This document shows positions 13,668-33,098 of a stretch of 64,000 nt of DNA, piece after piece. Made by a program: the position numbers and the translations under genes. The DNA comes from Amycolatopsis pithecellobii (lineage in GTDB: Bacteria; Actinomycetota; Actinomycetes; Mycobacteriales; Pseudonocardiaceae). Positions within the stretch are counted from its first letter, which is position 1. The number at the start of each line of letters is the position of its first letter. The DNA is taken from positions 62,001 to 126,000 of the forward strand of contig NZ_WMBA01000004.1 of NCBI RefSeq assembly GCF_009707865.1. Reading direction: 5' to 3'. Under the pieces are notes generated by a model. That model saw only the letters and a list, made by a program, of their open reading frames with translations. It was not told where the DNA came from and did not search any database.

Positions 13668-14108
13668 ATGGCCGCGAAACCCGGCCTCGGCGCCATCCGG
13701 CGTGCGCTCGATCTCGGCACCGGCTCGAACGCATGGGAGCGCACCGTCGACATCACCACCATCGGCGCTAGGACGGGACTGCCCCGGCGGATCGAGATCT
13801 GGTTCCACCACGTCGGCGGGCGATGGTACCTCAGCAGTACCCCCGCCCGCCGCGACTGGCACCGGAACCTCCTCGTGACGCCGCGCTTCACCTTCCACCT
13901 CAAGCACGGCATTCACGAAGACCTCGCAGCCACCGCGGTGGAAGTGTCCGATCCGGGCGAGCGACGGCGAATCCTCCAGTACATTGTGGACGATCTCAAT
14001 CAGCCCCACAATCCCGGCGCCGTGCCGCAGCCCCAGAATGTCGAAGACTGGATCGAAGGCAGCCCGCTCGTCGAGATCGTGTTCGACATCATGCAGGCGG
14101 ATCAGTAG
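13668..14108 (+). CDS. Nitroreductase family deazaflavin-dependent oxidoreductase
   Basis: This 146-residue protein resembles the split-barrel F420-dependent family (Ddn-like, DUF385): TTIGARTGLPRRIEIWFHH, then GGRWYLSS and RRDWHRNLL, and a C-terminal IVFDI. These enzymes use reduced F420 to reduce quinones, enones or nitro groups. AAAGGAG at 13651-13657 sets the start. The 3' end overlaps the convergent pcaG by 7 bp. Cofactor use is inferred from the family. Confidence 0.85.
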   Translation: MAAKPGLGAIRRALDLGTGSNAWERTVDITTIGARTGLPRRIEIWFHHVGGRWYLSSTPARRDWHRNLLVTPRFTFHLKHGIHEDLAATAVEVSDPGERRRILQYIVDDLNQPHNPGAVPQPQNVEDWIEGSPLVEIVFDIMQADQ

Positions 14109-14602
14109 TCGAAGAAAACGCTTTCTTCGGCTCCCTGCAAGTGAATGTCGAAGGTCAGTCCATCGACGGTCCGCCGGGCGACGAGCCGGTGCCGCTCGGC
14201 TTCGGGAACGAGACCGAGTACGGGATCGGCGGAATTCTCGCGCTCGTCAGGGAAGTACAGCCGGGTCACGACCTGTTTGATCAGCCCGCTGGCGAAGACG
14301 GCGACGGTGAAATGTGGTGCCTGCGCCCGCCCGTCCGGCAACGGAGCCGCGACGGGTTTGCGCACGACGAACCGGAATATCCCGTCCTCGTCCGCGCGGG
14401 CACGGGCCCACTGGTCACCTTGCCAGAGCTCGACAAGGGTGTCGGGATACGGGATGGCCTTCCCTTCGCCGTCGAAGACCGAGCCGCTGATGCGGATGGC
14501 GTCGCCGGCGTCAGCGGAGACGGTCCGCTCACTTCCGTCGAACATCAACGCGAACCCGTACAGCGGCCCGATGGTTTGCGAGGGGCTGATGACGTCGCTC
14601 AT
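14102..14602 (-). CDS. pcaG: Protocatechuate 3,4-dioxygenase alpha subunit-like
   Basis: This is a 166-residue intradiol dioxygenase alpha subunit with the N-terminal SQTIGPLYGFAL signature and the family end LVARR-xx-DGLTFDIHLQG. Alpha subunits bind no iron but shape the active site. It is shorter than usual (about 190-200). The ATG overlaps the stop of pcaH by 4 bp (ATGA), as expected for an alpha/beta pair. It is the last gene of a seven-gene minus-strand operon that starts with an MFS importer. No pcaB, pcaC or pcaD lies nearby, so the ring-cleavage product may not enter the normal beta-ketoadipate route here. Confidence 0.9.
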   Translation of the reverse strand: MSDVISPSQTIGPLYGFALMFDGSERTVSADAGDAIRISGSVFDGEGKAIPYPDTLVELWQGDQWARARADEDGIFRFVVRKPVAAPLPDGRAQAPHFTVAVFASGLIKQVVTRLYFPDERENSADPVLGLVPEAERHRLVARRTVDGLTFDIHLQGAEESVFFDY

Positions 14603-15297
14603 GTCAACGGCTCCCGCGGGGTCATCTCGCGGCCACGCAGCACGATGTCCCAGTCGTAGGCGAGCGCGGCGTCGACGTCGCCGAGTTCGGTGTCGTCCCA
14701 GTTCAACCGGGCGGTGAGCCGGTCGAGCCCACGCGGGTCGCCGACCGACTGCGCGATCGCATCGAAGGGGAGCAACGGGTCACCTTCGAAATAGCACTGG
14801 GTGATGATGCGGCTGCCAAGGTCGGGGCCGAACACCGAGACATGGATGTGCGCGGGCCGGAACATCCCGCGGAAACGGCCCGGATAAGCCGCCGGTTTGA
14901 TCGTCCGGAAACGGTAGTGTCCCGACGAATCGGTGAGCGTCCGGCCGGCGCCGGTGAAGTTCGGATCGAGCGGCATGAGCCCGGGATCCGCCGTGTCGAC
15001 GTACCGTCCCGCCCCGTTGGCCTGCCAGATTTCGACGAGTGTATGGGGCACGCCGCGACCGTCGCTGTCCAGGACCCGCCCCGACAGGGTGATGAACTGG
15101 CCGATGGGCCGGCCGGGGTGCTGGGTGGTCAGGTCGTTGTCGCCGGGCCGCACGGCGACCCGGCCGAATACCGGCCCGGGGGAGCGGTGGAACCATTCGG
15201 GCGGCAGCTGGATGAGCCGTTTCCGTGGTGCTCTGAGCACAGTGGACTTGTACCGAGGGTTCAGATAAGGCGGATTGATGTCGATGAATCCGGTCAC
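14599..15297 (-). CDS. pcaH: Protocatechuate 3,4-dioxygenase beta subunit-like
   Basis: This is the 232-residue catalytic subunit of an intradiol dioxygenase, which opens a catechol ring between the two hydroxyls using Fe(III). The expected iron ligands are visible: Tyr99 (GAGRYVD), Tyr138 (AAYPGRF), and His150 and His152 (PAHIHVS), with spacing nearly as in characterised PcaH. The GTG at 15297 overlaps the stop of the CoA-transferase gene (GTGA); the frame stays open upstream to 15555 but that part is antisense-free overlap and not needed. The natural substrate may be protocatechuate or a substituted catechol. Confidence 0.92.
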   Translation of the reverse strand: MTGFIDINPPYLNPRYKSTVLRAPRKRLIQLPPEWFHRSPGPVFGRVAVRPGDNDLTTQHPGRPIGQFITLSGRVLDSDGRGVPHTLVEIWQANGAGRYVDTADPGLMPLDPNFTGAGRTLTDSSGHYRFRTIKPAAYPGRFRGMFRPAHIHVSVFGPDLGSRIITQCYFEGDPLLPFDAIAQSVGDPRGLDRLTARLNWDDTELGDVDAALAYDWDIVLRGREMTPREPLT

Positions 15298-17870
15298 AGC
15301 GCCCCGCTTTCCGTCAAATCGGCCACCTGCGTTTCGGTCAGTCCCAGAATCGTCCGCAGGACATAGCCGGTGTCCTCGCCGTAACTCGGACCGGAACGGT
15401 CGAACGGTCCGCCGATATAGGACGGTGTCTCGCTCATCCGCACCGGATGTTCCTTGACCGGCCACACCCCGATGTGGGACTGGTTCAGCTCGACCATCCA
15501 TTCCCGGTACCGCAACTGGGGATCCGATTCGTACCGGTCCTGCGCGGTCTGGCACACGCCGGCCGGGACCGATCGCGCCTGCAACGCGGCCATCAACTCG
15601 AAACCGTCCCGGTGGCGCGTCGCGTCGTCGAGCAGGCGATCGAGCTCGTCCTGGTGCGCGAGCCTGGCTTCACGCGTGGCGAACCGGGACTCGCGCGCCC
15701 ATTCGGGGTCGCCCAGTTCCGTGATGAGCGCTGCCCACTGCTCTTCGGTGAACACCGACAGCGCGATCCAGCGGTCGTCGCCCTGGGTGCGGTAGGCGCC
15801 GTGCGGGGCGGCCGGCTTGGCGGGCGAGCGGTTCCCGTAGCGGGACCAGGCCCGGCCGTTCACCGACCAGTCGAGCACGGCCGACCCGGTCAGGTAGATG
15901 CCGGTTTCCCCTTGTGAGGCGTCGATGTGGCAGCCCGCCCCGGTGACGGCCTTCCGGTAGAGCGCGGCGAGCATCGCGTTGGCCATGTTGTAGGCGCCGA
16001 ACCAGTCCAAATAGGAGTATCCGATGCCTGCGGGCGGGAACGGTGCCGGCAGCCCGGACATCTCGGTGAGCCCGGAGAATCCCTGCGCGGTCGGGCCGTA
16101 GGCGCGAGCCTGCCCGTAGGTGCCGTGCTGTCCGAGACCCGACTGCTGAACGTAGATGATGCCCGGGTTCAGTTCCTTGAGCCGCTCGTAGCCTAGCCCC
16201 ATCCGTTCCATCGTGCCGGGAGAGAATCCTTCGACGACCATGTCCGCGTCGCGGATGAGGTCTTCCAGGATCTGCCGTCCGCGCGGATGCTTGAGGTTGA
16301 GGGAAATACCGAGCTTGCCCGCGTTGACCTCCATGAAGTTCCCGCATTGGTCCGGACCGGTCACCTCGGGAGCCGGGAGGGCCGCCGTCGCGCTGTCGCG
16401 TTCCGCGCGACCGCCCGGCGGGCACATCCCGAAGCCGAACCGCATGCTGTCCCACCGGGACTCGTGTTCGACCTTGATGACCTCGGCGCCCATCGCGGCC
16501 AGGAAGCGGCCCGCGCCGGCACTCGCGAGCATCCAGCTGAGGTCGACGACACGGACGCCAGACAGCGCGAAGGGCTTGCCCCGCTTGCTCACTTGGCTCG
16601 GCCCGGCCATGCAACGCGGAGCCTGCGGCGGGCGGGGTGCCCACTCGGACAGCACGGTCTCGGTGTGCTCGCCGAGCAAGGGCGGCCGGGGGCCGTGACG
16701 CCACGGGACTTCGGGGCAGAACCACTTGGCGCCGACATAGGTGAACGTCTCGCCGAGTTCGGGATGGTGGACCTCCACGAAGCTGTCCCTGGCCTGCCAA
16801 TGGTCGTCGTCGATGTTCTCCTCGGGACGCCGGATGGGCGCCCACGGCAGCCCTTCCGCCTGGGCGTCGCGCCAGATGTCGCGGTCGAACAGCAGGCGGC
16901 CGACCAGGTTGTCGGTCACTTGGGCGATGTGCGCGACGGTCTGCGGCTGGGTCCGGTAGTCGTCGTCGGCATACCGCGGGTCTTCGAGGTCGGCCTGCAT
17001 CCCGTACTTGCGCAGCAGCCGCAGTTCGCTCTCCCAGTTCGAGCCGAAGCTCTTGAGATAAGTGCGGTAGGGCATCACGTACCGGCCATCCTTGGTGATG
17101 GACAGCGACGGCACGGTCGAAGCGGGCATCGAATGCCGGCTGGTGAGCCGGAAGTGCTGCTGCCGAAGGAAAACCCAGTCCGGCATATCGGTCTCGGTGT
17201 TGGCGCTGACCGCCTGGTGCACGCTGGCGTCCAGTTGCTGACCACGGCCGGTGCGCAACCGGCTGGTCAGCGCGCCGAGGATCGACATGACCGCCATTTC
17301 GCCCGCGATCTGGTAGGACTGCCACATCTGGGGCGCGATGGGCGGGGTGTCGTAATCACCGGCGGGGTCGGGGTCGTAGCCGCAGTTCATCATCACCCCG
17401 CCGAGCGCGAGGTGCACGAGGTCGCTGCCCAGATGCGCCGCCCACGGCCCGTCGTCGCCGAACGGGCTGATTCTGGTATAGACCAATCCTGGATTGGTGT
17501 CGCGCAGCCGTTCGTAGCCGAGTCCCCGCTCGGCCAGATACCCGGGTGGCCGGCTGTCGATCACGATATCGGCGGCCCGCGCGAGCGCGGCGAAGTCCTG
17601 TCGTCCTTTCTCGGTGTCGAGGTCGAGTACGACGCTGCGTTTGCCGAAGTTGTAGTGCCAGAAATGAAGACTGCGGTCCGGGTCGGCGATGTCGTGGTAG
17701 AAGGGGCCGTAGCCGCGCGTCACCTCGCCCGAAGGCGGCTCGACCTTGACCACGTCGGCGCCAAGGCCCGCCAGCAGTTTGCCACAATATTCGCCGAGCT
17801 CGTCGGCGAGTTCGAGGACTCGGATACCGCCGAGGAACGATTCGGCGGCGACGTCGCTGCGGGGACTCAT
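15294..17870 (-). CDS. Double-domain CaiB/BaiF family CoA-transferase
   Basis: This 858-residue protein is two family III CoA-transferase domains in tandem, about residues 15-420 and 465-850; single-domain members are about 400. Each half has its own N-terminal motif (LGGIRVLELADELGEYCGKL and LSGVRVVDLSWMLASAGAG), a GADVVKVEPP or GAEVIKVEHE strand, and a G-x-G-xxx-DAS segment. Such enzymes move CoA between acids, often dicarboxylic or aromatic. The ATG at 17870 follows a GGAAAGGG ribosome site; the frame runs upstream to 18194 but overlaps the next gene. The position between the aldolase-like gene and pcaH points to CoA activation of an acid in this pathway. Confidence 0.9.
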   Translation of the reverse strand: MSPRSDVAAESFLGGIRVLELADELGEYCGKLLAGLGADVVKVEPPSGEVTRGYGPFYHDIADPDRSLHFWHYNFGKRSVVLDLDTEKGRQDFAALARAADIVIDSRPPGYLAERGLGYERLRDTNPGLVYTRISPFGDDGPWAAHLGSDLVHLALGGVMMNCGYDPDPAGDYDTPPIAPQMWQSYQIAGEMAVMSILGALTSRLRTGRGQQLDASVHQAVSANTETDMPDWVFLRQQHFRLTSRHSMPASTVPSLSITKDGRYVMPYRTYLKSFGSNWESELRLLRKYGMQADLEDPRYADDDYRTQPQTVAHIAQVTDNLVGRLLFDRDIWRDAQAEGLPWAPIRRPEENIDDDHWQARDSFVEVHHPELGETFTYVGAKWFCPEVPWRHGPRPPLLGEHTETVLSEWAPRPPQAPRCMAGPSQVSKRGKPFALSGVRVVDLSWMLASAGAGRFLAAMGAEVIKVEHESRWDSMRFGFGMCPPGGRAERDSATAALPAPEVTGPDQCGNFMEVNAGKLGISLNLKHPRGRQILEDLIRDADMVVEGFSPGTMERMGLGYERLKELNPGIIYVQQSGLGQHGTYGQARAYGPTAQGFSGLTEMSGLPAPFPPAGIGYSYLDWFGAYNMANAMLAALYRKAVTGAGCHIDASQGETGIYLTGSAVLDWSVNGRAWSRYGNRSPAKPAAPHGAYRTQGDDRWIALSVFTEEQWAALITELGDPEWARESRFATREARLAHQDELDRLLDDATRHRDGFELMAALQARSVPAGVCQTAQDRYESDPQLRYREWMVELNQSHIGVWPVKEHPVRMSETPSYIGGPFDRSGPSYGEDTGYVLRTILGLTETQVADLTESGAL

Positions 17871-17896
17871 GAGGTCGATCCCTTTCCTTTCCGGAC

Positions 17897-19090
17897 TCAC
17901 CGGGCGTCGTCGCGCACGAGTACGGCGCCTTGCGAGTTGTAGAAAAAACCGCCGATGGCGAGCAGCGCGGTCCGTGCCCCGTCGATCTGCCGCTCCCCGG
18001 CGGTGCCCCGCAGCTGGTGGACGGCGTCGCGGAGGAAACCCGCGCCCTGGGTGCCGCCTTCGGACAGCATCCCGCCCTGCGGATTCACCGGCACGCGGCC
18101 GTCGATGAGGAGCCTGTTCTGCTCGTCCCGCCAATGGTCTTCGAGGAATTTTCCGGCCTCGCCCGGCCCGCACCACCCGAGTTTTTCCAGCCACGACAAC
18201 GAGATGAAGCTGAACCCGTCATAGATGTAGGCGATGTCGGCGTCGGCGAGCCTGCGCTCACTGCGGGCCCACAGCTGCCGTGCCACGACGTCCTGGCCGT
18301 GCCGGGCCAGCGAACCCAGCTGCTCCTCGTCGCCGGCCGTCTCGACCAGGCCCTGACTCGCGTTGTGCACCAGAACGGGCACCTGACGAAGGTCCCGCGC
18401 CCGTTCGGTGGTCGTCAGCACGAAGGCCTCCGCACCGTCGACCGGCAGGTCCATGTCCAGCATTCCCAGCGGTTCGCGCACCATCCTGGCCGAGAGATAG
18501 TCCGGCAGGGTCAGCGGAGTGCGCATCGCGGCCAGCGGGTTGCCGACGGCGTTCGTGCGGCTGTTCACCGCGATCCGGCCCAAATGCTCGCGCTGGACCG
18601 GATTCTCGTGCAGGTACCGGCTCGCCCAGGCCGCGTAGGCGGCCGCGTTGCGGGCGTTTTCCGGCGGGAGACTGTCGTACCCGCGGATATTCCGCCGGAA
18701 CGGATCGGCGGCGGCTTTGGCGGAATTGAACGGCGTGCGGAAGTTGTAGTGGTACACCAGAACCGCGGTGCAGGCGCCCGAGTAGAGGGCGTGCATCGCG
18801 TCCAGCAGTGGGCTCACGATGACCGCGTTGCCGTCGGCGAAATAGGTCACCTCCGGCAGTCTGAGCATGGCGACCATTTCCGTGGCGCCCGGTGGAACGA
18901 TGGTCCAGCTGCCCATGCCCGCGGAGGAAACGACTCCGTCGATATCGGCACGCGAAAGCCCGGCGTCCCGGATCGCTTTGACGGCGGCTTCGGCCGCGAG
19001 GGACCGTGCCGTACGGCCACCTTTGCGGCTGTAGCCGGTGGAACCGACGCCCGCGATCGCGATCTGATCCTGAATACGGTTGTGCGTCAT
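17897..19090 (-). CDS. Thiolase-fold lipid-transfer-like protein lacking thiolase catalytic residues, probable retro-aldolase
   Basis: This is a 397-residue SCP2-thiolase-fold protein (IAIAGVGSTGYSRKGGRT at the start). Thiolases carry a nucleophilic Cys near residue 85-100 and a GHP-xG motif near the C-terminus. Here the first region reads YFADGNAVIVSPLLDAM with no Cys, and the second reads GGMLSEGGTQGAGF with no His. The same losses mark Ltp2-type acyl-CoA retro-aldolases of steroid side-chain degradation, which need a DUF35 partner. A DUF35 gene overlaps this one by 4 bp (ATGA). I therefore favour carbon-carbon cleavage of a 3-hydroxyacyl-CoA over thiolysis. The activity is inference. Confidence 0.85.
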   Translation of the reverse strand: MTHNRIQDQIAIAGVGSTGYSRKGGRTARSLAAEAAVKAIRDAGLSRADIDGVVSSAGMGSWTIVPPGATEMVAMLRLPEVTYFADGNAVIVSPLLDAMHALYSGACTAVLVYHYNFRTPFNSAKAAADPFRRNIRGYDSLPPENARNAAAYAAWASRYLHENPVQREHLGRIAVNSRTNAVGNPLAAMRTPLTLPDYLSARMVREPLGMLDMDLPVDGAEAFVLTTTERARDLRQVPVLVHNASQGLVETAGDEEQLGSLARHGQDVVARQLWARSERRLADADIAYIYDGFSFISLSWLEKLGWCGPGEAGKFLEDHWRDEQNRLLIDGRVPVNPQGGMLSEGGTQGAGFLRDAVHQLRGTAGERQIDGARTALLAIGGFFYNSQGAVLVRDDAR

Positions 19091-19524
19091 GCTCGTGCCC
19101 CTTGTCGCGGCCGGAATGCGGGGAACGGCGCGCCACCCCGGTCGAGCCAGACGAGTTCGACCGGGGTGCCGATCGGGACGAGGCCCGTGCCGCCGACCGC
19201 GGTGCTGGTGAAGCGGAGTCCTTTCTGTTCCTCGAGTTCGACCGTGACGACGGGGTAGGGGTAGGTCACTCCCTCCATCGCGGGCCCCTGGTGCAGCAGG
19301 ATCGACAGGTGCACCGTGCCGCGCCCGCTGAGCTTCCGCGGCGCGAGGTCGAAGGACCAGCAGAACGGGCACAGCGGGTGGGCGGGGGCATGCCATTTTC
19401 CGCAGGCCACGCACTGGGGGAGCCGGAATTCGTGGTCGAGCCAGCCCTCGTAGAGAGCGAGATTGTCTTCGTCCACCGGCAGCGTGGGGTAGCGTTCCCA
19501 GGCGGGCAGGGCCGATGGCCTCAC
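19087..19524 (-). CDS. DUF35 zinc-ribbon/OB-fold protein, partner of the thiolase-fold enzyme
   Basis: This 145-residue protein has an N-terminal rubredoxin-like zinc ribbon (CVACG near residue 38, CPFC near 53) followed by an OB-fold ending in GTPVELVWLD. DUF35 proteins form complexes with thiolase-like aldolases or synthases and hold the acyl-CoA. The start is a GTG at 19524 overlapping the SRPBCC stop (GTGA), and the stop overlaps the next start (ATGA), so subunits would be made in step. Confidence 0.9.
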   Translation of the reverse strand: MRPSALPAWERYPTLPVDEDNLALYEGWLDHEFRLPQCVACGKWHAPAHPLCPFCWSFDLAPRKLSGRGTVHLSILLHQGPAMEGVTYPYPVVTVELEEQKGLRFTSTAVGGTGLVPIGTPVELVWLDRGGAPFPAFRPRQGARA

Positions 19525-19961
19525 GCGACATCACCTCCCCCGGCGAACAGTTTCGCCAGCGAGTCGAGTCCACTTTGGAACGCGCCGTCACCCATGGCCT
19601 TGTCGACATCCGCCACCACGGCGGGGTCCGCGTCGAACGTCGCGGCCCACGTCACCGTGCATCCGGTCAGATCATTCGCGGTGGCGGTGAGAGTGGCCCG
19701 GTGCCCGGAGACCGGGAACGGCGGAGCAGGTATGGTGTAGACCATTGTCCTGCTCGTGTCGTCGACGGAAACGAGACGCTCGAGGAAATCGGTCCCGCCG
19801 CTGTGCGCGACCCGCTCGGTGCCCGGTTCGTTCGCCGGGCCGCGCACGGTCAGCCGGTCGATTCCCGGCATCCATCTCGCGATGGCGGAGAAGTCGCCGA
19901 CCAGTTGCCAGACCTCGGCCGCGGGGGCGGGCAAGGTGATCGAACGGGTTACCGAGTGCAT
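19521..19961 (-). CDS. SRPBCC family protein
   Basis: This is a 146-residue helix-grip protein of the polyketide cyclase/START type: ITLPAPAAEVWQLVGDF at the N-terminus, RWMPGIDRL, and a long C-terminal helix. The fold makes a hydrophobic pocket and serves in ligand binding, cyclisation or lyase steps. It lies between the MFS gene (36-bp gap) and the DUF35 gene in the same operon. Its exact role is not known. Confidence 0.82.
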   Translation of the reverse strand: MHSVTRSITLPAPAAEVWQLVGDFSAIARWMPGIDRLTVRGPANEPGTERVAHSGGTDFLERLVSVDDTSRTMVYTIPAPPFPVSGHRATLTATANDLTGCTVTWAATFDADPAVVADVDKAMGDGAFQSGLDSLAKLFAGGGDVA

Positions 19962-19997: not shown

Positions 19998-21377
19998 TCA
20001 GAGCCGGTCTTCCTCGACCGGTACCCGGCCCTTGGCGGTGGCAGGGCCCACGACGGCGGGGCCGGCCGCCCGCCATCGGCGGTCGATGAGGATCGCGATC
20101 ACGGAGGAGATCGCGAGCAGGACCGAGATGAGAATGATGCCGGCGTTCTGGCTGCCGGTGAGGTCGCGCAGCCATCCGGTCACATAGGGGCCGAAGAACC
20201 CGGCCGTGACGCCGATCGTGTTGACCAGCGCGACCGCCGCGGCGGCGGCGACGCCACCGTACAGTTCGGCCGCCACCACCAGGATCAGGGGAGTCGCGCC
20301 GGTGATGCCGATGGCCATCAGGCACAGGCACACGATGAGCGTGATCGGGTTCGTCGCGAACGTCGCGGCGATGCCGCCCGCGACGCCGATCACCGCCGCC
20401 ACGGCCACGTGCAGCCCTGGGCGTCCCTTCCGGTCGGCGTGGCGGCCGAACCACAGCTGGGCGGCACCGCCGAAGGCGAACGGGATGGCGGTGATCCAGG
20501 CGGCCTGGGACAGCGAATAGTGGACGTTGAATTGTTTCTGGAAGCCGGCCACGATCGCGGGCAGGAAGAAGGTCAGTGCGAACGCCCCGTAGGTGAAGCT
20601 GAAATAGCAGAGACCGAGTAGCCACACCCGCCCACGGCGCAGCACCGTGCGGACGCTGTGGGAGGACGGCGTGTGCGCCGGCTTGGCGTCGAGTCTTGCC
20701 TGGATGTCGGCCTTCTCCGCCGGGGAGAGCCACGAGGCCTGCTGCGGGCCGTCGTCGAGGTAGAACCACGCGATCACGCCGAGGATCACGGCGGGGACGC
20801 CGGTCATCAGGATCAGGAAACGCCAGCCGGTCAGCCCGAACGGGTGCCCGGCGTTGCCGATCGAGATGAGCCAGAACGAAAGGGGCGCCCCGGCGACGGT
20901 GGCGACCATGACGGAGAACAGGAACCGGCTGATCGCGCGGCCACGGTATTCGCGGGAGAACCAGAAAGTCAGGTACAGCAGCACGCCGGGCGTGAATCCC
21001 GCCTCGGTGAGTCCTAATAGGAAGCGGAGGATGTACAGGATCGTGGCGTTGGGCGTGAAGGCGGTGAGGATCTGGATCACGCCCCAGGTGACGATGATGC
21101 GGGCGAGCCAGATCCGTGCGCCGAACCGGTACATCGCGACATTACTCGGCACTTCGAGCAGAATGTAGCCGACAAAGAAGATTCCCGCGGCCAGGCCGAA
21201 CGTCGTCGCGGTCAGGCCGAGTTCCTTGTTCATGCCGTAAGGTCCGGCATAGGACAGACTGATCCGGTCCAAATAGGCCACGAACATCAGCAGGCCGAGG
21301 AACGGCAGCAGGCGCAGGGAGATTTTCCGGTTGAGCTTTCCGGGGTCGACCCGGTCGAGAACGTCGTCGGCGGCCAT
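19998..21377 (-). CDS. MFS transporter, anion:cation symporter (aromatic acid type)
   Basis: This is a 459-residue, 12-span major facilitator. The early motif VAYLDRISLSYAGPYGMNKELGL matches the ACS group (tartrate, phthalate and hydroxybenzoate symporters), with GYILLEVPSN in span 2. I use the ATG at 21377; the frame is open to 21545 but the extra residues are not transporter-like. It is the first gene of the operon that ends with pcaG, and a 15-bp palindrome shared with the IclR promoter lies about 125 bp upstream. It is the likely importer of the pathway substrate. Confidence 0.9.
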   Translation of the reverse strand: MAADDVLDRVDPGKLNRKISLRLLPFLGLLMFVAYLDRISLSYAGPYGMNKELGLTATTFGLAAGIFFVGYILLEVPSNVAMYRFGARIWLARIIVTWGVIQILTAFTPNATILYILRFLLGLTEAGFTPGVLLYLTFWFSREYRGRAISRFLFSVMVATVAGAPLSFWLISIGNAGHPFGLTGWRFLILMTGVPAVILGVIAWFYLDDGPQQASWLSPAEKADIQARLDAKPAHTPSSHSVRTVLRRGRVWLLGLCYFSFTYGAFALTFFLPAIVAGFQKQFNVHYSLSQAAWITAIPFAFGGAAQLWFGRHADRKGRPGLHVAVAAVIGVAGGIAATFATNPITLIVCLCLMAIGITGATPLILVVAAELYGGVAAAAAVALVNTIGVTAGFFGPYVTGWLRDLTGSQNAGIILISVLLAISSVIAILIDRRWRAAGPAVVGPATAKGRVPVEEDRL

Positions 21378-21500: not shown

Positions 21501-21515
21501 CCTATAGGCAATAGG
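21501..21515. promoter_or_regulatory. 15-bp palindrome, candidate IclR operator for the MFS-pcaG operon
   Basis: CCTAT-AGGCA-ATAGG is a perfect 5-bp inverted repeat with a 5-nt spacer, 124 bp upstream of the MFS start. Read on the minus strand it is CCTATTGCCTATAGG, which matches the element at 22898-22912 in 14 of 15 positions. I saw no other copy in the window. Confidence 0.7.
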
Positions 21516-21614
21516 AAGACTAGGCACTGCCCGCGCGGGCGTCAAGCGTCAGTTCAGCGGCTTCGGTGAAGTTGTCGGTGGCCGCGGCTATGGTCGTCGC
21601 TCATGAAGGCTTCC

Positions 21615-22794: not shown

Positions 22795-22800
22795 CGGGGG

Positions 22801-22807
22801 CTCCTTT
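22801..22807 (-). promoter_or_regulatory. Ribosome binding site supporting an ATT start
   Basis: The minus strand reads GGAAAGGAG, six bases, then ATT at 22794-22792. The spacing is ideal, and no ATG, GTG or TTG exists in this frame between the upstream TGA and the GTG at 22695. Confidence 0.6.
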
Positions 22808-22897
22808 CCAGGCCGGCGGCGTCATTCGGGTCGCAGCCGGGTTCGAGCCTACCGCCGGGCGGGTTGACAGTGCCGCGCAGTCACCCAATAATTGCTA

Positions 22898-22912
22898 CCT
22901 ATTGACTATAGG
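22898..22912. promoter_or_regulatory. 15-bp palindrome, candidate IclR operator in front of its own gene
   Basis: CCTAT-TGACT-ATAGG is a perfect inverted repeat ending 25 bp before the IclR start at 22938. It differs by one spacer base from the minus-strand reading of the element at 21501-21515. This fits autoregulation by the IclR protein and joint control of the MFS-pcaG operon. Confidence 0.7.
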
Positions 22913-25605: not shown

Positions 25606-26082
25606 ATGAGTGTCAGGGAGACTTCCCATCAGCCAACGGCGGATGGTTCCGCGGAACTGGCGGCGCTGCGCGCCGAGGTCCAGCTCCTGCGCGACAAGGA
25701 GGCCATCGTCGAGCACACCGTGGCCTACAACCACGCCTGGGACGACGGCCGCGGAGAGGACTGGGTCGCGACGTTCACCGCCGACGGCGAATTCGCCATG
25801 CCGGAGCAACCGGAGGTCGTCGGTGAGAGCGCACTCCGGGAAATGACCCGGGATCAGCTGTCGCGCGGGTTCGTCCACATCACCACCGACCATCACATCA
25901 CCGTCGATGGCGACACCGCGCAGCAGACCTGCACGCTGATCCTGTCCAAGCGCTCGCCGGGCAAGGAAGCGGGCAGCTCGGTCTGGGTCACCGCGGGCCG
26001 GTACTCCGACACGCTGCGCCGCACGCCGGAGGGCTGGCGATTCGCCCGCCGATGGTTCGTTCCCGACGCTTGGTGGGACTGA
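25606..26082 (+). CDS. SnoaL-like/NTF2 family protein
   Basis: This is a 158-residue protein whose residues 25-155 form an NTF2-like cone (LRDKEAIVEHTVAYNHAWDD, VHITTDHHITVDGDTA, RRTPEGWRFARR). The fold is found in dehydratases, isomerases and small hydroxylating-enzyme subunits. GAGGAG before the ATG and a 13-bp gap from the monooxygenase suggest joint expression. Function is open. Confidence 0.82.
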   Translation: MSVRETSHQPTADGSAELAALRAEVQLLRDKEAIVEHTVAYNHAWDDGRGEDWVATFTADGEFAMPEQPEVVGESALREMTRDQLSRGFVHITTDHHITVDGDTAQQTCTLILSKRSPGKEAGSSVWVTAGRYSDTLRRTPEGWRFARRWFVPDAWWD

Positions 26083-26086: not shown

Positions 26087-27253
26087 TTGTCGTTCCGACT
26101 GAGTTCGAGTGCCCGGCAATTCGGCGACCGGGTACGGCGCTGGCTTGCCGAAGAGCTGGACCCGGCGTGGCAGCAGCGCTACCAGCCGTCGACGCCGGAA
26201 TGGATCGAGTTCCAGCGTGACTGGGACCGGGCGCTGTACCGTGCGGGCTGGGGAGCGATCTTCTGGCCGTCGGAGTTCGGCGGCCTCGACGCGACGGCCG
26301 AAGAACGGGTCGTGTTCGCCAAAGTCATGGCGGAGGCGGGCGCGCCGGAAGGACTCGGCAAGCTCGCGAAGCGGCTGCTGGCACCGGTTCTCATTCACCA
26401 CGGCGACGCCGCCCAGCGGGAGCGGTACCTTCCGCCGATCCTGCGCGGGGAAATGGTCTGGGCACAGGGTTTCTCGGAGCCCGAGGCCGGTTCCGACCTG
26501 GCGTCGCTGCGGACGACGGGCACCGTCGACGGTGACCAGCTCGTGCTCAGCGGGCACAAGATCTGGACCAGTCACGCCTGGTACTGCGACGCGATTTTCG
26601 CGCTCGTGCGCACCGCGAGACTCCAGCGCAAGCAGGCCGGGATCTCGTTCGTGCTCGTTCCCGCCGACGCACCAGGCGTTTCCATCAGCAAGATCCAGCA
26701 GATCGACGGGCGAGCCGAACTGTCGGAGGTGTTCTTCGACGACGTCCGGATCCCGATCGGCAACGTCGTCGGCGCCCTCGGCGACGGATGGCGGATCGCC
26801 AAAACGCTGCTACGGTACGAACGCGGGGCCGAAATGGCTTTCGTCCGCTCCGCCGAGATCAGGCATTCCGTCCGGGAGCTGACAGCCGATCTCTCCGCGT
26901 CGCGGGTGAACATCGACGACCGGGTGCGGCAGGGACTCGGCCGCCTGGAAGCGGCCTACCTGGCGGCCGAGCTGAACTCCTTGCGGCTGCTGGGAAGCCA
27001 GGCCGATGGCGACCCGCCCGGCGACCTTTCGGCGGTGGTCAAGCTCCAGCAGTCGGAGGAGTGGCGGCGCGGCACCGTGGACGGGCTGCACCTGCTTGGC
27101 GGCGGGGCACTTTCGCGAGGACACCGCCATTTCGGTCGTTATTTCCACGCCCGACCCGCGACCATCGCGTCCGGTTCTTCGGAGATCCAGCGCGAGATCA
27201 TCGCCCACCGGCTCCTCGGATTGCCCGCCGGTACCCGGGCCGGCACGACATGA
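26087..27253 (+). CDS. Acyl-CoA dehydrogenase (first of a pair)
   Basis: This is a 388-residue acyl-CoA dehydrogenase: WPSEFGGLDAT, QGFSEPEAGSDLASLRTT for FAD/substrate contacts, GHKIWTSHAWY, and C-terminal IASGSSEIQREIIAHRLLG. The start is a TTG at 26087, 4 bp after the preceding stop. The stop overlaps the ATG of a second, more divergent dehydrogenase (ATGA). Adjacent large and small ACAD genes in actinomycetes often encode alpha2-beta2 enzymes, as in steroid side-chain degradation, and that is my reading. Confidence 0.92.
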   Translation: MSFRLSSSARQFGDRVRRWLAEELDPAWQQRYQPSTPEWIEFQRDWDRALYRAGWGAIFWPSEFGGLDATAEERVVFAKVMAEAGAPEGLGKLAKRLLAPVLIHHGDAAQRERYLPPILRGEMVWAQGFSEPEAGSDLASLRTTGTVDGDQLVLSGHKIWTSHAWYCDAIFALVRTARLQRKQAGISFVLVPADAPGVSISKIQQIDGRAELSEVFFDDVRIPIGNVVGALGDGWRIAKTLLRYERGAEMAFVRSAEIRHSVRELTADLSASRVNIDDRVRQGLGRLEAAYLAAELNSLRLLGSQADGDPPGDLSAVVKLQQSEEWRRGTVDGLHLLGGGALSRGHRHFGRYFHARPATIASGSSEIQREIIAHRLLGLPAGTRAGTT

Positions 27254-28296
27254 GCGACGCGGCCACGAAGCTGGGATTGTCGCGGGACACCTGGGAGATC
27301 GCGCAGGCGGTGCGTGCCGTCCTCGCCGACGTGATGGCGAGCCACCCGCTTCGCGTGGAGCCGGACGAAACCGTCCGGCGAACGCGGCTGACCGAGCTGC
27401 ACGCCGTGCTGACAGAAGGTTCCTGGGCGGAGGTGGCGCTCGGTGAATTCGGTTTGCTGACCGCGGTCGCCGAGGTTGCGGCCACGGTACCGGCTACACC
27501 GGCCTATCCACTGGTGGAAATGTGGCTCGCGCACCGGGTTCTGGATCGGCTCGGCCGTCGTGACATCGCCGAGCCGGGACGCCTCGTCGTCGCCGACGTC
27601 ACCGCGCCGCTGGAGCCGGACGGCGACGCCGGTGTGCCGTTCGGACCGTTCACCGACGTCGTGCTGCGGCTGGAACCCAGGTGGGACAAGGACTTCGACG
27701 TGCTCGCCGTCGAGGCGTCCGGTGCACAGTGGACATTACTCGACGACACCGATGCGACACGACCGCTGCACACGCCGGCACCCGGCGCCGTCACCGGTCT
27801 CGGTGTGCTCCGGACTGAGGACGCGCTGACCATCGCGGCCGAATTCGCGGTGCTGGAGGCGGCGGAGATGCTCGGCTGCGCGGATACGCTTTTCCGCGCC
27901 ACGGTGCGGCATGTGTCCCACCGCGAGCAGTTCGGCAAGCCACTGTCGGCCAACCAAGTGGTGCGCCACCGGATGGCGGACGCGTACACCCAGCTCGAAT
28001 CCGTCAGGTCGCTCGTTCGCTACGCGGGCTGGGTCGCCGACACTGACGCGTCGCGGCTGGGCGAGTTCGCCTTCGTCGCGAAGGGGCTCGCCGGCGAGTA
28101 CTGCTGGGACGTGCTCGACGAGGCATTCCAGTTGCACGGTGCCATCGGGTGCACGGCGGAGCTCGGCCTGCAGCATCCGGCCGCCCGGATCATGACCAGG
28201 ACGATGTCGCCGCCCACGTCCGCCGATTGCCTTGTCCGCACGGGCTCGGCCGTGCTCGCCCGTGGTTCGATCGCCGCCCTGCTGGAGGAAACATGA
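27250..28296 (+). CDS. Acyl-CoA dehydrogenase family protein (second of a pair)
   Basis: This 348-residue protein aligns with the ACAD fold mostly in its C-terminal half (AEMLGCADTLFRATVRHVSH, REQFGKPLSANQVVRHRMAD, EAFQLHGAIGCTAELGLQHP). The middle domain is divergent and short. It resembles the beta-type partner of heteromeric ACADs. Its ATG overlaps the stop of the first dehydrogenase and its own stop overlaps the hydratase ATG. Confidence 0.88.
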   Translation: MSDAATKLGLSRDTWEIAQAVRAVLADVMASHPLRVEPDETVRRTRLTELHAVLTEGSWAEVALGEFGLLTAVAEVAATVPATPAYPLVEMWLAHRVLDRLGRRDIAEPGRLVVADVTAPLEPDGDAGVPFGPFTDVVLRLEPRWDKDFDVLAVEASGAQWTLLDDTDATRPLHTPAPGAVTGLGVLRTEDALTIAAEFAVLEAAEMLGCADTLFRATVRHVSHREQFGKPLSANQVVRHRMADAYTQLESVRSLVRYAGWVADTDASRLGEFAFVAKGLAGEYCWDVLDEAFQLHGAIGCTAELGLQHPAARIMTRTMSPPTSADCLVRTGSAVLARGSIAALLEET

Positions 28297-29099
28297 GTGT
28301 CGTTGTGCTGAGCGATCCGGCGCCGCATGTGCGGGAAATCCGGTTGAACCGGCCGGAAAAGCTCAACGCACTGAACGGCGAGCTGCGGTCCGCGCTCGCC
28401 GGTGCACTGCGTGCCGTGCGTGCGGACGAGGACGTGCGTGTTGTCGTGCTATCGGGGGAGGGCCGCGCTTTCTGCACCGGGGCGGACGTTTCTGCGGGGT
28501 CGGAGTACGGCGCGGCGGCCGAGACCCGGCCCGAGGACGAGCGCCGCCGCATCCTCGCCTCGATCGACCTTTTCCTCGACGTGTGGCGGCTTCCCGTGCC
28601 GGTGATCGCGAAGATCCACGGCCATTGTCTGGGCCTGGCGACGATTCTCGCCAACTGCTGCGACATCGTGCTGTGCGCCGACACCGCCACGATCGGCTGG
28701 CCCGCCCTGCCGCTCGGCGGCGGTCTGCTCAGTCCGACCTGGGTATGGCATGTCGGCATGCACCGGGCCAAGGAGATGAGCTACCGGATCGGCTCGACGA
28801 TCACCGGCGCCGAGGCGGCTGCCTACGGTTTCGCCAACCACGCCGTGTCCGCGGATCAGCTGGACGCGAGAACGGGTTCGATGGCGGCGGAGATCGCGCG
28901 GGTGTCCCGCGATCTGCTGACCCTCAAGAAGGACGCGCTCAACCAGGTGCACGGGCGGCTGGGTTTCGAAGACGCCGTCCGCGCCGGTGCCGCCTGGGAC
29001 GCGCTCGCGCACACCACCCGCGCCGCGACCGAGGTGCGTGCGCAGCGGCAGCAGATCGGTCTCAAAGCGACGATCGCCGCCTGGCAAACCCAGAACTAG
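28293..29099 (+). CDS. Enoyl-CoA hydratase/isomerase family protein
   Basis: This is a 268-residue crotonase-fold enzyme. The oxyanion-hole segments are GRAFCTGADVS near residue 60 and HGHCLGLATILANCCDIVLC near 110. The Glu that normally follows Pro in the next strand (E144 of rat hydratase) appears as Ala in WPALPLGGG, while a later Glu (AKEMSYRIG) may match E164. It could be a hydratase, isomerase or lyase. It is coupled by ATGA to the second ACAD. Confidence 0.88.
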   Translation: MSVVVLSDPAPHVREIRLNRPEKLNALNGELRSALAGALRAVRADEDVRVVVLSGEGRAFCTGADVSAGSEYGAAAETRPEDERRRILASIDLFLDVWRLPVPVIAKIHGHCLGLATILANCCDIVLCADTATIGWPALPLGGGLLSPTWVWHVGMHRAKEMSYRIGSTITGAEAAAYGFANHAVSADQLDARTGSMAAEIARVSRDLLTLKKDALNQVHGRLGFEDAVRAGAAWDALAHTTRAATEVRAQRQQIGLKATIAAWQTQN

Positions 29100-29128
29100 C
29101 CCTGTTTCCCTTTCGTGAAGGCGGTTTG

Positions 29129-31204
29129 ATGAAGCCCACGCCCGACTATTTCCGCGACATCCGTGCCATCGCGGTCATCGGTGCGTCGCAGCGCAGCTTC
29201 TACGCGACGATGGCGATCCGGAACCTCACCGGCTACGGGTTCGACGGGGAGATCCTGCCGGTGCACCGCGCCGGTGGCACCTTGCTGGGACAGAAGGTCT
29301 ACCCGGACGTGGCGAGCCTGCCGGTCGATCCGGATCTGGCCGTGGTGGGTGTTTCCGCGGCGCGCGCCGCGGAGGCGATCGAGCAGCTGGCGGGGCGCGG
29401 CTGCCGGAAGATCGTGCTGATCGCGGATGGTTATGTCGAGCGTGCCGACGAGATCGGGGCGGCTCGTACGGCCGAGCTCGCCGGGTTGTGTGACCGGCTC
29501 GGCGTCGAACTGGTCGGCCCCAACGGTATCGGTGTCGCCTCCTTCGCCGAGGGGTTCGTGCCGATCTGCGAACCGATCCCCGCCGACGTCCACAGTGGAC
29601 AGGTGTCGATCGTCAGCCACAGTGGCGCACTGGTGTCCGGCATCCTCGACGGGTTCGCCATGGCGGGCCTCGGGGTCAACGCGGTCATCTCGGTCGGCAA
29701 CGGCACCGTGACGAACTTGCTCGACTGGCTCGAATGGACAGTCGAAGACCCGGGCACCACAGCGGTGGCGTGCTACGCGGAGGGTATCGGGGACCTGTCC
29801 CGGTTCCGCACGATCGCCGGCCGTGCCGCGGCCAACGGGACGCTGATCGTCCTGCTCGCAGCCGGGCGCAGCGGGCTCGCCCGTGATATCGCGCTTTCTC
29901 ACACCGCGTCGGTCGCCGGAGACCATGATCTCCTCGACGCCGTCTGCGTCGATACGGGGGTCGCCGTCGTGCCGGACGTGGAAACCCTGGTGACCGTCTG
30001 CGATTTCCACGCGCACGGGATGGCCCGTGGCCCGGTGGTGATCACGTCGTCCGGCGGGGCCGCCACCCTCACCGCGGACCTCGCCGCCGATGCCGGCCTC
30101 GCCCTGCCCGCACTCGGCGATGCCTCCCGGCTGCTGCTCGATGATCTCGTTTCCGCGTCCGGGTACGTCGGCAATCCGATGGATCTCACGGCGTCCGGCA
30201 GCCTCGACGGGCCGGCGCGCCGGCGCCTGTACGAGGCGTTGCTGAGGGACGAGCGGATCGACGGAGCCCTCTGCGTTCTCGCCGTCACCTTCCCCGGCGA
30301 AGAGGATTTCCGTGGCATGCACCGTGAGATGATCTCCGCGCTGGCCGACGCCGCCGAGGCGACCGGACGGGACGTGGTGCTGGTGCCGATCGGGGAGCAG
30401 GCCGTCACCGACTGGGTGGCCCGGGTCGTGGCGGACACACCGCGTCTCGGCCTCGTCCGGAGTCTGCGCCGCGCGCTCGCCGCGCTCGGCATCCTCCAGC
30501 GGCGGACCCGGTACGCCCGGACGGGCCAGGCGGCAGAGGAGCGTTCGGCGTCCAAAAGGGACGGAATGGGATGGCTCAGCGAGCCGGCGGCGAAGGATCT
30601 GCTCGCGGCCTGTGGGCTCCCCGTCGCACGAGGGGTGCTGGCCGAGCGGCGTGCGGACCTGCTGACCGCCCGGCTTCCCGGTGACGGGCCGTACGTCGTC
30701 AAGGGTGTGGTGCGCGAGGTCGCGCACAAGGCGCGGTTCGGCTTGGTCGAGATCGGTCTCCAGGACCGGACCGGGGTGCGGCGCGCGGCGAAAGCCATCG
30801 AGCGCAACGCAGCCGAGCACGGGCTCGCCGATCGTGTCGAGGGATTCCTCGTCGAGGAGCAGGTGGCCGGCTTTGAGGTGATGGTCTCCACGCGGTGGCA
30901 CAGCGGCGTCCCGTTCCTCACGCTCGCGCTCGGCGGTACGCTCGTCGAGGCCTTGCGCACCAGTGCGAGCGTGCCGCTGCCGCTGCACCCCGGATCGTGG
31001 GTGTCCTTAGTGGACCGGTCCGGGCTGGGGCCCGTTCTCGGCGCGCTCCCCGCCGGCGGCCAGGACGCCCTGCGGCGCCTGTGTGAGGCACTCGCGGACG
31101 CGGTCGTCGGCGGAGTACTGGCGCCGTTCGGCACCGTCGAACTGAATCCGGTCATCGTCGGCCGCGCGGGCGACGTGCACATCGTCGACGCGCTGATGCT
31201 GTGA
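29129..31204 (+). CDS. NDP-forming acyl-CoA synthetase (acetate-CoA ligase family)
   Basis: This 691-residue protein has a CoA-binding domain (IRAIAVIGASQRSFYA), succinyl-CoA-ligase-like domains with the phospho-His region SIVSHSGALVSG and ALSHTASVAGD, and a C-terminal ATP-grasp half (GPYVVKGVVREVAHKARFG, TVELNPVIV). It makes acyl-CoA from acid, ATP and CoA with ADP release. GAAGGCGG precedes the ATG at 29129. It is a second candidate, besides the CaiB-type protein, for CoA activation in this pathway. Confidence 0.9.
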   Translation: MKPTPDYFRDIRAIAVIGASQRSFYATMAIRNLTGYGFDGEILPVHRAGGTLLGQKVYPDVASLPVDPDLAVVGVSAARAAEAIEQLAGRGCRKIVLIADGYVERADEIGAARTAELAGLCDRLGVELVGPNGIGVASFAEGFVPICEPIPADVHSGQVSIVSHSGALVSGILDGFAMAGLGVNAVISVGNGTVTNLLDWLEWTVEDPGTTAVACYAEGIGDLSRFRTIAGRAAANGTLIVLLAAGRSGLARDIALSHTASVAGDHDLLDAVCVDTGVAVVPDVETLVTVCDFHAHGMARGPVVITSSGGAATLTADLAADAGLALPALGDASRLLLDDLVSASGYVGNPMDLTASGSLDGPARRRLYEALLRDERIDGALCVLAVTFPGEEDFRGMHREMISALADAAEATGRDVVLVPIGEQAVTDWVARVVADTPRLGLVRSLRRALAALGILQRRTRYARTGQAAEERSASKRDGMGWLSEPAAKDLLAACGLPVARGVLAERRADLLTARLPGDGPYVVKGVVREVAHKARFGLVEIGLQDRTGVRRAAKAIERNAAEHGLADRVEGFLVEEQVAGFEVMVSTRWHSGVPFLTLALGGTLVEALRTSASVPLPLHPGSWVSLVDRSGLGPVLGALPAGGQDALRRLCEALADAVVGGVLAPFGTVELNPVIVGRAGDVHIVDALML

Positions 31205-32214
31205 AAGCCATGACCGACACCACGACCACCATCGCCGGCCTCGACATCGCCGTCGGCAGCAGGGAACGCCGGCGCGACGAGATCGTCCGCATCGCGCGCG
31301 CCGCGGACGAGGCCGGGGCAGGCGCGATCTGGGTGACCGAAAGCATGGGACGTGACGCCTTCTCGATCCTGACCGAGCTGGCTCTGACCACCAGCCGGAT
31401 CGCGCTGGGCACCGGGATCGTCAACGTCTACAGCCGCACCCCGACCGCGCTCGCGCAGGCCGCGGCCAGCCTCCTCGAGCTGATGGGAACGCGCACGCTG
31501 AACCTCGGGCTGGGTACCAGCGGGCGGGCGCTGGTCGAGGGCTACCACGGGGTGCCGTACCAGCGTCCGGTCGCCCGGCTGGCCGAGACCGTTCGTGTGC
31601 TGGATACCGCGTTCAGCACCGGAAAGCTGCCACCTGACGGCACGGTGTTCCCGCTCGGCGGGCTTCCCCTGGGTATCGACGCCGACCGCGACCGCCTGCG
31701 GCTGTACGTCGCCGGGCTCACGCCCCGGACTCTCGAAGTGACCGGGGCGTACGCGGACGGCTGGCTGCCCATCTGGCCTTCGCGTTCGGGCCGCGGCGGT
31801 GCGCTGCGGGCGGTGGAGACCGCCGCGGAGGCGGCCGGGCGGCCTCGTCCCGCCGTCGCCGGGTACCTGTACACGGTCGTCGGTGCCGAACCCGGCCCGC
31901 TGCGAGCGACGCTGGCCTGGTACATCGCGGCCAATGGCACGGCCTATCGCCGTTTGTTCGAAAGCTACGGCTTCGGCGAGCAGGTCGAGCGGATCTGCGG
32001 GCTGTGGGCCGCGGGTGACCGGGACCTCGCCCGCCGCGCCGTGACCGACGAGATGCTCGACGACTCCACCCTCCGCGGCGCCCCCACCGAGGTCCTGCGC
32101 CAGGCGGCCGCCTTCCGGCGCGCCGGAGTGGACCGTCCGGTGCTACGCCTGCCAGGGCAGGTTTCCACCGGCGACTGCCTCCGGATGATCACCGCGCTGG
32201 CCGGGACGACCTGA
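31201..32214 (+). CDS. LLM class oxidoreductase, possibly F420-dependent
   Basis: This is a 337-residue luciferase-like TIM barrel: ADEAGAGAIWVTESMGRDAF, LTTSRIALGTGIVNVYSRTP, TLNLGLGTSGRALVEG, ADGWLPIWPS. The short length and IVNVYSRTP segment are closer to the MER/F420-dependent group than to SsuD. The start may be the GTG at 31201, which overlaps the ligase stop (GTGA), or the ATG at 31210. Cofactor (F420 or FMN) is not certain. Confidence 0.87.
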   Translation: MKAMTDTTTTIAGLDIAVGSRERRRDEIVRIARAADEAGAGAIWVTESMGRDAFSILTELALTTSRIALGTGIVNVYSRTPTALAQAAASLLELMGTRTLNLGLGTSGRALVEGYHGVPYQRPVARLAETVRVLDTAFSTGKLPPDGTVFPLGGLPLGIDADRDRLRLYVAGLTPRTLEVTGAYADGWLPIWPSRSGRGGALRAVETAAEAAGRPRPAVAGYLYTVVGAEPGPLRATLAWYIAANGTAYRRLFESYGFGEQVERICGLWAAGDRDLARRAVTDEMLDDSTLRGAPTEVLRQAAAFRRAGVDRPVLRLPGQVSTGDCLRMITALAGTT

Positions 32215-33098
32215 TGGATGTGCCGAAGTACCGGGAGCTTCCGCTGATCGGCGAGACCGGCGACTACCGGCACGCCTGGCAGGTGTTCCCTCCGGACGAC
32301 GACCTGGGGTGCCTGCGCCATCTCACGCCCGAAGCCCGGCGGCGGGGCCTGGCCACGGTCACCGAAAACGTCGTGGTGAACATTTCGCTGCCGCTCGACG
32401 AGCCCGATCCGCCGTTGTTCGGCCGCAAGCGGTTCACGCACACCGTTTTTTCGCCCAGCCGCAACAGTATGGACGACCGCTTGGACGGGTTTTTCCCGCA
32501 GGGCTCCACCCAATGGGACGGGTTCCGTCACGTCCGCGCGCGCGAGTTCGGGTTCTTCACCGGTCACCAGGGCGATTTCGCCGACGACCGGCTCGGCATC
32601 GGGCACTGGGCACAGGCCGGCATCATCGGTCGCGGTGTGCTCCTCGATCTGTCCGAAGAGGACGGTGTGATCGGTCCCGGCCGGCTCGCCCGCGCGGCCG
32701 CCGATGCGGGTGTCGAGGTCCTGCCCGGTGACATCCTGTGCGTGCGGACGGGGTGGCTGGAGCGGTACCGGCGCGGTGACGCCGTGGCGGGTGAGCAACG
32801 GCGCTGGCCCGGCCTCGCCGGGTCGAGCGCGATGGCGGAACTGTTGTGGGGCTGGCAGATCTCGGCCGTCACCGCGGACAATCCCGCGCTGGAGGTCGCT
32901 CCCGGCCGGCCCGAGGACGGATCGCTGCATCGGCGGCTGCTGCCGTTGCTGGGCCTGCCGATCGGGGAGCTGTTCACCTTCGATCGGCTGGCGCAGGCGT
33001 GCCGGGAACTCGGCCGCTTCGCGTTCCTGTTCGTGTCGGTCCCGCTGAACCTGCCCGGTGGCGTCGGATCACCGGCCAACGCGGTGGCAGTCCTATGA
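32214..33098 (+). CDS. Cyclase family protein (kynurenine formamidase-like hydrolase)
   Basis: This is a 294-residue cyclase-fold protein. The classical metal motif H-x-G-T-H-x-D is replaced by GSTQWDGFRHV, a variant seen in one subgroup, and the late Glu/His pair is not obvious. Homologues hydrolyse amides or lactones. It ends the plus-strand run that starts with the IclR gene; the ATG shares one base with the upstream TGA (TGATG). It could open a cyclic intermediate. Confidence 0.83.
   Translation: MDVPKYRELPLIGETGDYRHAWQVFPPDDDLGCLRHLTPEARRRGLATVTENVVVNISLPLDEPDPPLFGRKRFTHTVFSPSRNSMDDRLDGFFPQGSTQWDGFRHVRAREFGFFTGHQGDFADDRLGIGHWAQAGIIGRGVLLDLSEEDGVIGPGRLARAAADAGVEVLPGDILCVRTGWLERYRRGDAVAGEQRRWPGLAGSSAMAELLWGWQISAVTADNPALEVAPGRPEDGSLHRRLLPLLGLPIGELFTFDRLAQACRELGRFAFLFVSVPLNLPGGVGSPANAVAVL

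Follow-up and report, generated by a model that had tools for sequence, protein, structure and literature searches.

Which regulator governs the divergent catabolic locus carried by Amycolatopsis pithecellobii on contig NZ_WMBA01000004.1, how far does this locus extend, and what kind of compound would it degrade? The locus lies in a window of 64,000 nucleotides (positions 62,001 to 126,000 of the contig, assembly GCF_009707865.1; all coordinates below are those of the window), and the original prediction described it as an IclR-controlled catabolic island of two arms ending at 33,098. The reading we favour, which we consider reasonably likely, is that of a TetR-controlled catabolic system for an organic acid, probably an aromatic one, that has probably spread horizontally. 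The shared palindromes, the conserved gene set, the enzyme families and the altered active sites on which this reading is built are read from the sequence itself; the order of the catabolic steps and the substrate are what we infer.

The two arms, seven genes on the minus strand and ten on the plus strand, are present with the gene content and coordinates first described, and each is preceded by a palindrome: CCTATTGCCTATAGG (21,501-21,515, minus strand) is the putative operator of the minus arm, and CCTATTGACTATAGG (22,898-22,912, plus strand) that of the plus arm, the latter also lying in the upstream region of a TetR-type gene that had gone unnoticed between the arms. The near-identity claimed for the two palindromes holds, 14 of their 15 bases being the same, and both stand immediately 3' of a sigma70-like -35/-10 pair with a 17-bp spacing, as read by eye. 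Without mismatches, the pattern CCTATTGNCTATAGG matches only these two palindromes in the 7.9-Mb genome, and no site at one mismatch or fewer arose in 40 random 64-kb sequences drawn from an order-1 Markov model. With up to two mismatches the genome holds four forward and three reverse sites, the reversed control giving 11 in either orientation; the loose pattern is therefore no commoner than chance, and what counts is that two copies are exact and where they stand. At up to one mismatch, a single site was found in total in 18 other genomes of the genus, the reversed control giving two matches in the own genome and seven in the 18 others. The same palindrome precedes both arms of the orthologous clusters of Actinomadura madurae and Prauserella muralis. 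Sites of the form CCTATN5ATAGG number two in the window genome, three in A. madurae and four in P. muralis, and eight of these nine (two, two and four, respectively) are located at cluster genes; since the reversed control also yields some (two, one and none), the number of sites says little and their positions say much.

Each of the three genomes has one palindrome upstream of a TetR gene, as expected for an autoregulated repressor. The TetR-type gene of the window (22,156-22,695, minus strand; PF13305, PF00440) has orthologs of 73-78% identity in both other clusters, with two copies in P. muralis, so that each of the three clusters has both TetR and the palindrome. The IclR-type regulator (22,938-23,693, plus strand; PF01614, PF09339) is found in the window cluster only: the orthologous stretches, which retain the palindrome and TetR, give no IclR match at E values up to 1. 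In a partial paralogous cluster of the same genome (C56), the 40 kb examined contain neither a TetR or IclR match nor a palindrome within three mismatches. These three observations together indicate that the palindrome is most likely the predicted operator of the TetR-type regulator and not of IclR, which may be an added regulator; the control by IclR originally proposed is thereby left unsupported. As to the TetR gene itself, homology reaches upstream of the GTG at 22,695 (22,695-22,821, minus strand) and places the true start there, yet this segment has no in-frame ATG, GTG or TTG; it has an in-frame ATT after an AAGGAG stretch, and an unusual start codon or an alteration of the sequence could account for the anomaly. 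Also between the arms, an open reading frame (21,603-22,106) has no Pfam match and no match in the orthologous stretches, and IclR_C matches exist farther along the contig of the paralogous cluster.

The clusters of A. madurae (L010, L063, L064) and P. muralis (L009, L061, L111) were found through LLM1, a luciferase-like monooxygenase (LLM) of the plus arm, by a pattern scan of genome contigs that confirmed two loci among 16 candidate stretches and that detects close relatives only. Gene sharing was assessed by tblastn of the window proteins, matches covering under 40-50% of the query being dropped. Nineteen window genes are common to A. madurae, where they lie on one contig, and P. muralis, with 56-87% identity: those of PcaG, PcaH, the double CaiB protein, the thiolase-fold protein, DUF35, TetR, the FMN reductase, LLM1, the crotonase, the ADP-forming synthetase, LLM2, the PF04199 protein, the cycloisomerase, AraC, E2 and the four E1 subunits. 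The P. muralis crotonase gene is found on a separate contig, at its very end and some 420 bp beyond a palindrome, so that contiguity is not shown there. The description of the locus as a single co-regulated catabolic island is supported, the PcaGH genes and the DUF35/aldolase-like pair accompanying the operator in three genera. The MFS and SRPBCC genes are shared with A. madurae only; at their place P. muralis has three genes that would encode a TRAP transporter, judged by size and order alone. No full-length match to SnoaL, ACAD1, ACAD2 (the last two being acyl-CoA dehydrogenases, ACADs) or IclR was obtained in the orthologous stretches, and an ACAD1 ortholog was not found in the whole genomes of the two relatives (best matches 42% and 39%). 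Both relatives carry, between the double CaiB and PcaH genes, a third LLM oxidoreductase (L063, 4,761-5,702; L061, 2,362-3,261) that is not present in the window.

The right border first drawn at 33,098 has to be moved, as the unit continues to at least 40,407. It takes in a muconate-cycloisomerase-like gene (33,104-34,207, minus strand), an AraC-type regulator (34,306-35,283, plus strand) and, all on the plus strand, a five-gene 2-oxoacid dehydrogenase set made of E2 (35,312-36,487), an E1 alpha (E1a, 36,471-37,490) and E1 beta (E1b, 37,500-38,480) pair, and a second E1 alpha (E1c, 38,477-39,433) and E1 beta (E1d, 39,430-40,407), the last with orthologs of 87% in both relatives. These genes belong to the island, which covers at least 26 kb (14,102-40,407), is rare and has probably spread horizontally. 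Overlaps of 1-11 bp, which had been announced for most junctions, occur at nine of 15, four of six in the minus arm and five of nine in the plus arm, one of them assuming that the GTG at 31,201 is the start of LLM2; a 167-bp gap separates the FMN reductase and LLM1 genes and leaves room for a second promoter. Farther right, at 40,486-45,860, MmgE/PrpD, glyoxalase/VOC, AMP-dependent ligase, short-chain dehydrogenase/reductase (SDR) and SnoaL genes prolong the catabolic run beyond the part that is shown to be conserved. On the other side, an aldehyde dehydrogenase gene (12,159-13,646, plus strand) lies beside the PcaG end and has no match in the orthologous stretches.

At E 1e-120, LLM1 is found in two of 249 genomes of the family (the own genome and G322, taken as P. 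muralis) and not in any of the 15 further genomes listed for the genus; at E 1e-80, four of 396 genomes of the phylum have it, namely the own genome and three with relatives of 38-46%. This scarcity in genus and family fits horizontal acquisition. The double CaiB protein is not diagnostic alone, since within the order some match to it is present in 290 genomes out of 298. The paralogous cluster (about 100,520-121,080 of its contig; L073, L074) contains E1a, E1b, PcaHG, AraC, an MFS carrier of 40% identity, PF04199, LLM2, the synthetase, the crotonase, SRPBCC and LLM1. Its LLM1 is nearer to that of the window than the P. muralis protein is (87% versus 81%), whereas its PcaH is more distant (74% versus 84%), so that the copies look mosaic. 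It also carries SDR, EthD-like (a label given by inspection), BBE-type FAD oxidase, BKACE and HpcH aldolase genes. Outside these clusters, on a plasmid of Caballeronia sp. SBC2 (L083), thiolase, AMP-ligase, FAD-binding oxidoreductase, aldolase/citrate lyase and EthD-family genes surround a relative of LLM1 (37%), and a plasmid of Mycolicibacterium madagascariense (L116) has a similar module in a different order, with a 46% double CaiB relative and thiolase, OB-fold, NTF2, two ACAD, cyclase and enoyl-CoA hydratase genes. Deducing the function from such plasmid neighbours was attempted and given up, because only single modules are shared (LLM near PF04199; double CaiB with thiolase and OB-fold) and never the whole set.

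What would such an island degrade? The intradiol dioxygenase and the cycloisomerase favour an aromatic acid, as does the carrier, whose relation to HpaX stays below the cut-off of that family. The dioxygenase subunits are encoded at the end of the minus arm, PcaG (14,102-14,602, minus strand; 166 amino acids), present in both orthologous clusters, and PcaH (14,599-15,297, minus strand), with orthologs of 84% and 76%. PcaG passes the alpha-subunit equivalog cut-off (TIGR02423, 141.9 versus 126.25 bits) and PcaH misses that of the beta subunit (TIGR02422, 264 versus 296 bits). The positions of the Tyr-Tyr-His-His iron ligands are retained in the PcaH alignment; the ligand numbering and the pocket roles that we apply here are those we presume for protocatechuate dioxygenase. 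The genome has a canonical PcaGH pair elsewhere (C67, 52%), and compared with it the pocket is changed in all four island-type sequences: none of the four PcaH has the Trp found in the YPWR segment of the canonical protein, and in the island-type PcaG GPL replaces GPY and a loop of about 19 residues is missing. PcaB, PcaC and PcaD were not recognised among the genes scanned, and a muconate-cycloisomerase relative is present in all three clusters that have the TetR-type gene.

The enzymes that would handle CoA esters and carbon-carbon bonds are no less unusual. The double CaiB protein (15,294-17,870, minus strand; 858 amino acids) has two different class III halves, the N-terminal one aligning with chain A and the C-terminal one with chain B of the benzylsuccinate CoA-transferase 9fn0, and an Asp of the C-terminal half stands opposite the Asp of 9fn0, which we take to be the functional residue of CaiB proteins; it is predicted to be a fused BbsE/BbsF-like CoA-transferase. 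The thiolase-fold protein (17,897-19,090, minus strand) has 6ok1, presumably the Ltp2 of T. curvata, as its nearest solved structure, and adjoins a DUF35 protein with a ChsH2-type Zn ribbon, an OB fold and a C4 zinc motif (19,087-19,524, minus strand; PF12172, PF01796). In the alignment with 7yvy and 6esq, whose CASG segment supplies the nucleophilic Cys of thiolases, the window protein has Asn at that position, and the BbsB model gives 74.5 bits for a cut-off of 750. According to PMC12329534, the steroid side-chain aldolases use the Tyr of a YD-x-F/Y motif as base and an acid residue that is Tyr344 in Ltp2 or Cys304 in Sal. The Tyr of the corresponding YDGF motif is kept in the three orthologs, and the positions of both acid residues are Gly in all three, as deduced from the 6ok1 alignment through its YDHF motif and from the ortholog alignment. 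The crotonase-fold protein (28,293-29,099, plus strand) lacks both hydratase Glu residues, which are catalytic in classical enoyl-CoA hydratases, as do all six members aligned, including relatives from Cnuibacter and Mycobacterium branderi. Five other ECH_1 paralogs of the genome comprise two with both Glu, one with one and two with neither, so that the absence, while it rules out a classical hydratase, is nothing unusual for the superfamily. ACAD1 (26,087-27,253, plus strand) is followed by its partner ACAD2 (27,250-28,296, plus strand), which has a weak likeness to IpdE2 (59.6 bits, cut-off 450).

The remaining genes of the two arms would serve oxygenation, activation and transport. The plus arm continues after IclR with an NADPH-dependent FMN reductase (23,683-24,258; PF03358), the RutA/SfnG-like flavin monooxygenase LLM1 (24,426-25,592), a SnoaL-like small protein (25,606-26,082; PF13577) and, after the ACADs and the crotonase, an ADP-forming acyl-CoA synthetase (29,129-31,204), LLM2, an LLM oxidoreductase of F420-type families with all family scores below cut-off (31,201-32,214), and a protein of the PF04199 'cyclase' family, likely a hydrolase (32,214-33,098), all on the plus strand. 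The minus arm begins with an MFS transporter whose relatives include D-galactonate and HpaX-type carriers (19,998-21,377, minus strand; PF07690, with TIGR00893 and TIGR02332 both below cut-off) and a small SRPBCC protein (19,521-19,961, minus strand; PF10604). In PMC8234197, the RutA-type N5-peroxide monooxygenases are characterized by the oxygen reactivity motif F/L-T/S-NxV-A-F/L/Y. LLM1 obtains 144 bits with the RutA model (cut-off 498), and its alignment with RutA, which covers part of this motif, has the T and NxV positions in four of four island-type sequences and the L-S pair in three of four.

In the model we propose, the TetR repressor would bind the palindrome at the divergent promoters and be released by the substrate or its product. 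The acid, probably aromatic, would be imported by the MFS carrier and oxygenated by LLM1 and LLM2, the FMN reductase supplying the RutA-like LLM1, and the fused BbsE/F-like transferase and the ADP-forming synthetase would form CoA thioesters. Cleavage of carbon-carbon bonds would fall to the DUF35/aldolase-like pair and the Glu-less crotonase, PcaGH would open a catechol other than protocatechuate, and the cycloisomerase and the PF04199 protein would process the resulting muconate or lactone. The presence of a 2-oxoacid dehydrogenase set suggests that the products of ring cleavage are 2-oxo acids, which this complex would turn into acyl-CoA. We advance more tentatively, and regard as doubtful, the stronger proposal of a new aerobic pathway in which a specialised PcaGH acting on a non-protocatechuate catechol, a cycloisomerase and PF04199 protein that yield a 2-oxo acid, and a dedicated dehydrogenase complex, equipped with two E1 pairs, that forms CoA esters from it would be joined to the BbsE/F-like fusion, a DUF35 pair without the described acid residues and a non-hydratase crotonase.

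Several observations weigh against the TetR-controlled aromatic acid system. It has no known substrate, PcaGH needs a catechol and no well-known type of ring hydroxylase is present unless an LLM enzyme serves, and no hydratase with a classical active site was found among the genes scanned. The A. madurae LLM1 has L-P where the RutA alignment has L-S, small helper proteins and transporters vary between the clusters, and the paralogous cluster is devoid of cycloisomerase, transferase and aldolase-like genes. On the regulatory side, the link between TetR and operator is drawn from co-occurrence in three genomes and one negative, the loose pattern is no commoner in the window genome than its reversed control (two sites each), the A. 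madurae sites lie about 200-550 bp from coding starts, no site is close to the additional TetR copy in P. muralis (L061), and AraC and IclR may act too.

The original prediction had assigned to the island an IclR-controlled removal of a side chain by CoA activation, desaturation by the ACADs, hydration and Ltp2-type retro-aldol cleavage, followed by ring opening by PcaGH. Every family named is indeed present, and the IpdE2 likeness of ACAD2 and the kinship of the thiolase-fold protein with 6ok1, motif Tyr included, speak for it, but the relatives have kept the palindrome and the other enzymes without IclR or an ACAD ortholog, the crotonase lacks both hydratase Glu, Gly occupies the positions of the Ltp2 and Sal acid residues and no MaoC-type hydratase was found among the genes scanned, so that the steroid-type route is weakened and appears very improbable. 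The match of both transferase halves to the two BbsEF chains, together with the resemblance of the DUF35 and thiolase-fold pair to BbsAB, would suit instead an aerobic Bbs-type beta-oxidation of an aryl-succinate, in which the BbsEF-like fusion, an ACAD, the crotonase and the DUF35-thiolase would give aroyl-CoA and succinyl-CoA before ring cleavage. The Bbs pathway employs these steps plus an alcohol dehydrogenation, according to PMC10818641, and no BbsCD-like SDR was found among the genes scanned in 14.1-40.4 kb; the missing thiolase Cys and the low BbsB score, the ACADs not found in the relatives and the occurrence of fused CaiB relatives in unlike neighbourhoods likewise make this route improbable.

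An alicyclic or terpenoid substrate is left possible by the neighbourhoods of PF04199 on other plasmids: LLM would then act as a Baeyer-Villiger oxygenase, the PF04199 protein would open the lactone and the Glu-less crotonase would cleave a beta-diketone. PF04199 relatives of 43-46% are located near LLM and P450 genes on plasmids of Rhodococcus pyridinivorans and M. branderi, and in Cnuibacter an ACAD pair again has PF04199 and a Glu-less crotonase as neighbours. At a limit of E 1e-8 with half of the query covered, however, neither LLM1 nor LLM2 has a match among those plasmid LLM genes, no P450 is present among the island genes scanned, and the intradiol dioxygenase and the muconate-cycloisomerase relative of all three clusters point to a catechol, which leaves this explanation with a low probability. 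A biosynthetic cluster, as suggested by the names SRPBCC, SnoaL and cyclase, was rejected in view of the CoA, dioxygenase and transport genes.

In conclusion, the island offers a 19-gene catabolic unit with a common operator, kept in three actinomycete genera, which is directly testable and whose regulator would provide an assay for the inducer. Every family in it is known; the claim that no described pathway has this combination agrees with literature searches limited to open-licence papers, in which neither the combination nor the operator was found. The absence of the acid residue known from either type of steroid aldolase, that of the hydratase Glu pair and the occurrence of the fusion outside a toluene pathway suggest possible new chemistry, and the DUF35/aldolase-like pair, the Glu-less crotonase and the BbsE/F-like fusion could each reveal new substrates or new carbon-carbon bond reactions.

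Compared with known systems, the island resembles the PcaGH branch of the beta-ketoadipate pathway by two adjacent subunits, a PcaG above its cut-off and conserved iron-ligand positions, but differs from it by a PcaH under its cut-off, a changed pocket Trp and PcaG Tyr, and a cycloisomerase of another superfamily where pcaB, pcaC and pcaD are not recognised among the genes scanned. Of the solved structures, the muconate cycloisomerase 3dg3 (E 1.2e-40), presumably from Mycobacterium smegmatis, is alone in matching this cycloisomerase-like enzyme with an E value of 1e-30 or less. The enzyme shows in three of three sequences the Lys/Asp/Glu pattern that we take to be catalytic; it scores only 137 of 335 bits with the subfamily model (TIGR02534), so that its substrate is not given by its sequence. 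With the RutA-type monooxygenases LLM1 shares the T and NxV positions and an adjoining FMN reductase gene, but it is under the cut-off, has the L-S pair in part of the sequences and stands in a neighbourhood without rut genes. The thiolase-fold protein recalls Ltp2 and Sal by its fold, its motif Tyr and its adjoining C4 zinc DUF35 protein, and departs from them by lacking the acid residue of either type and a MaoC hydratase partner among the genes scanned. Finally, whereas the double CaiB protein is fused into one chain and lies in an oxygenase-rich context with no other bbs-type set recognised, both chains of BbsEF are represented by its two halves.

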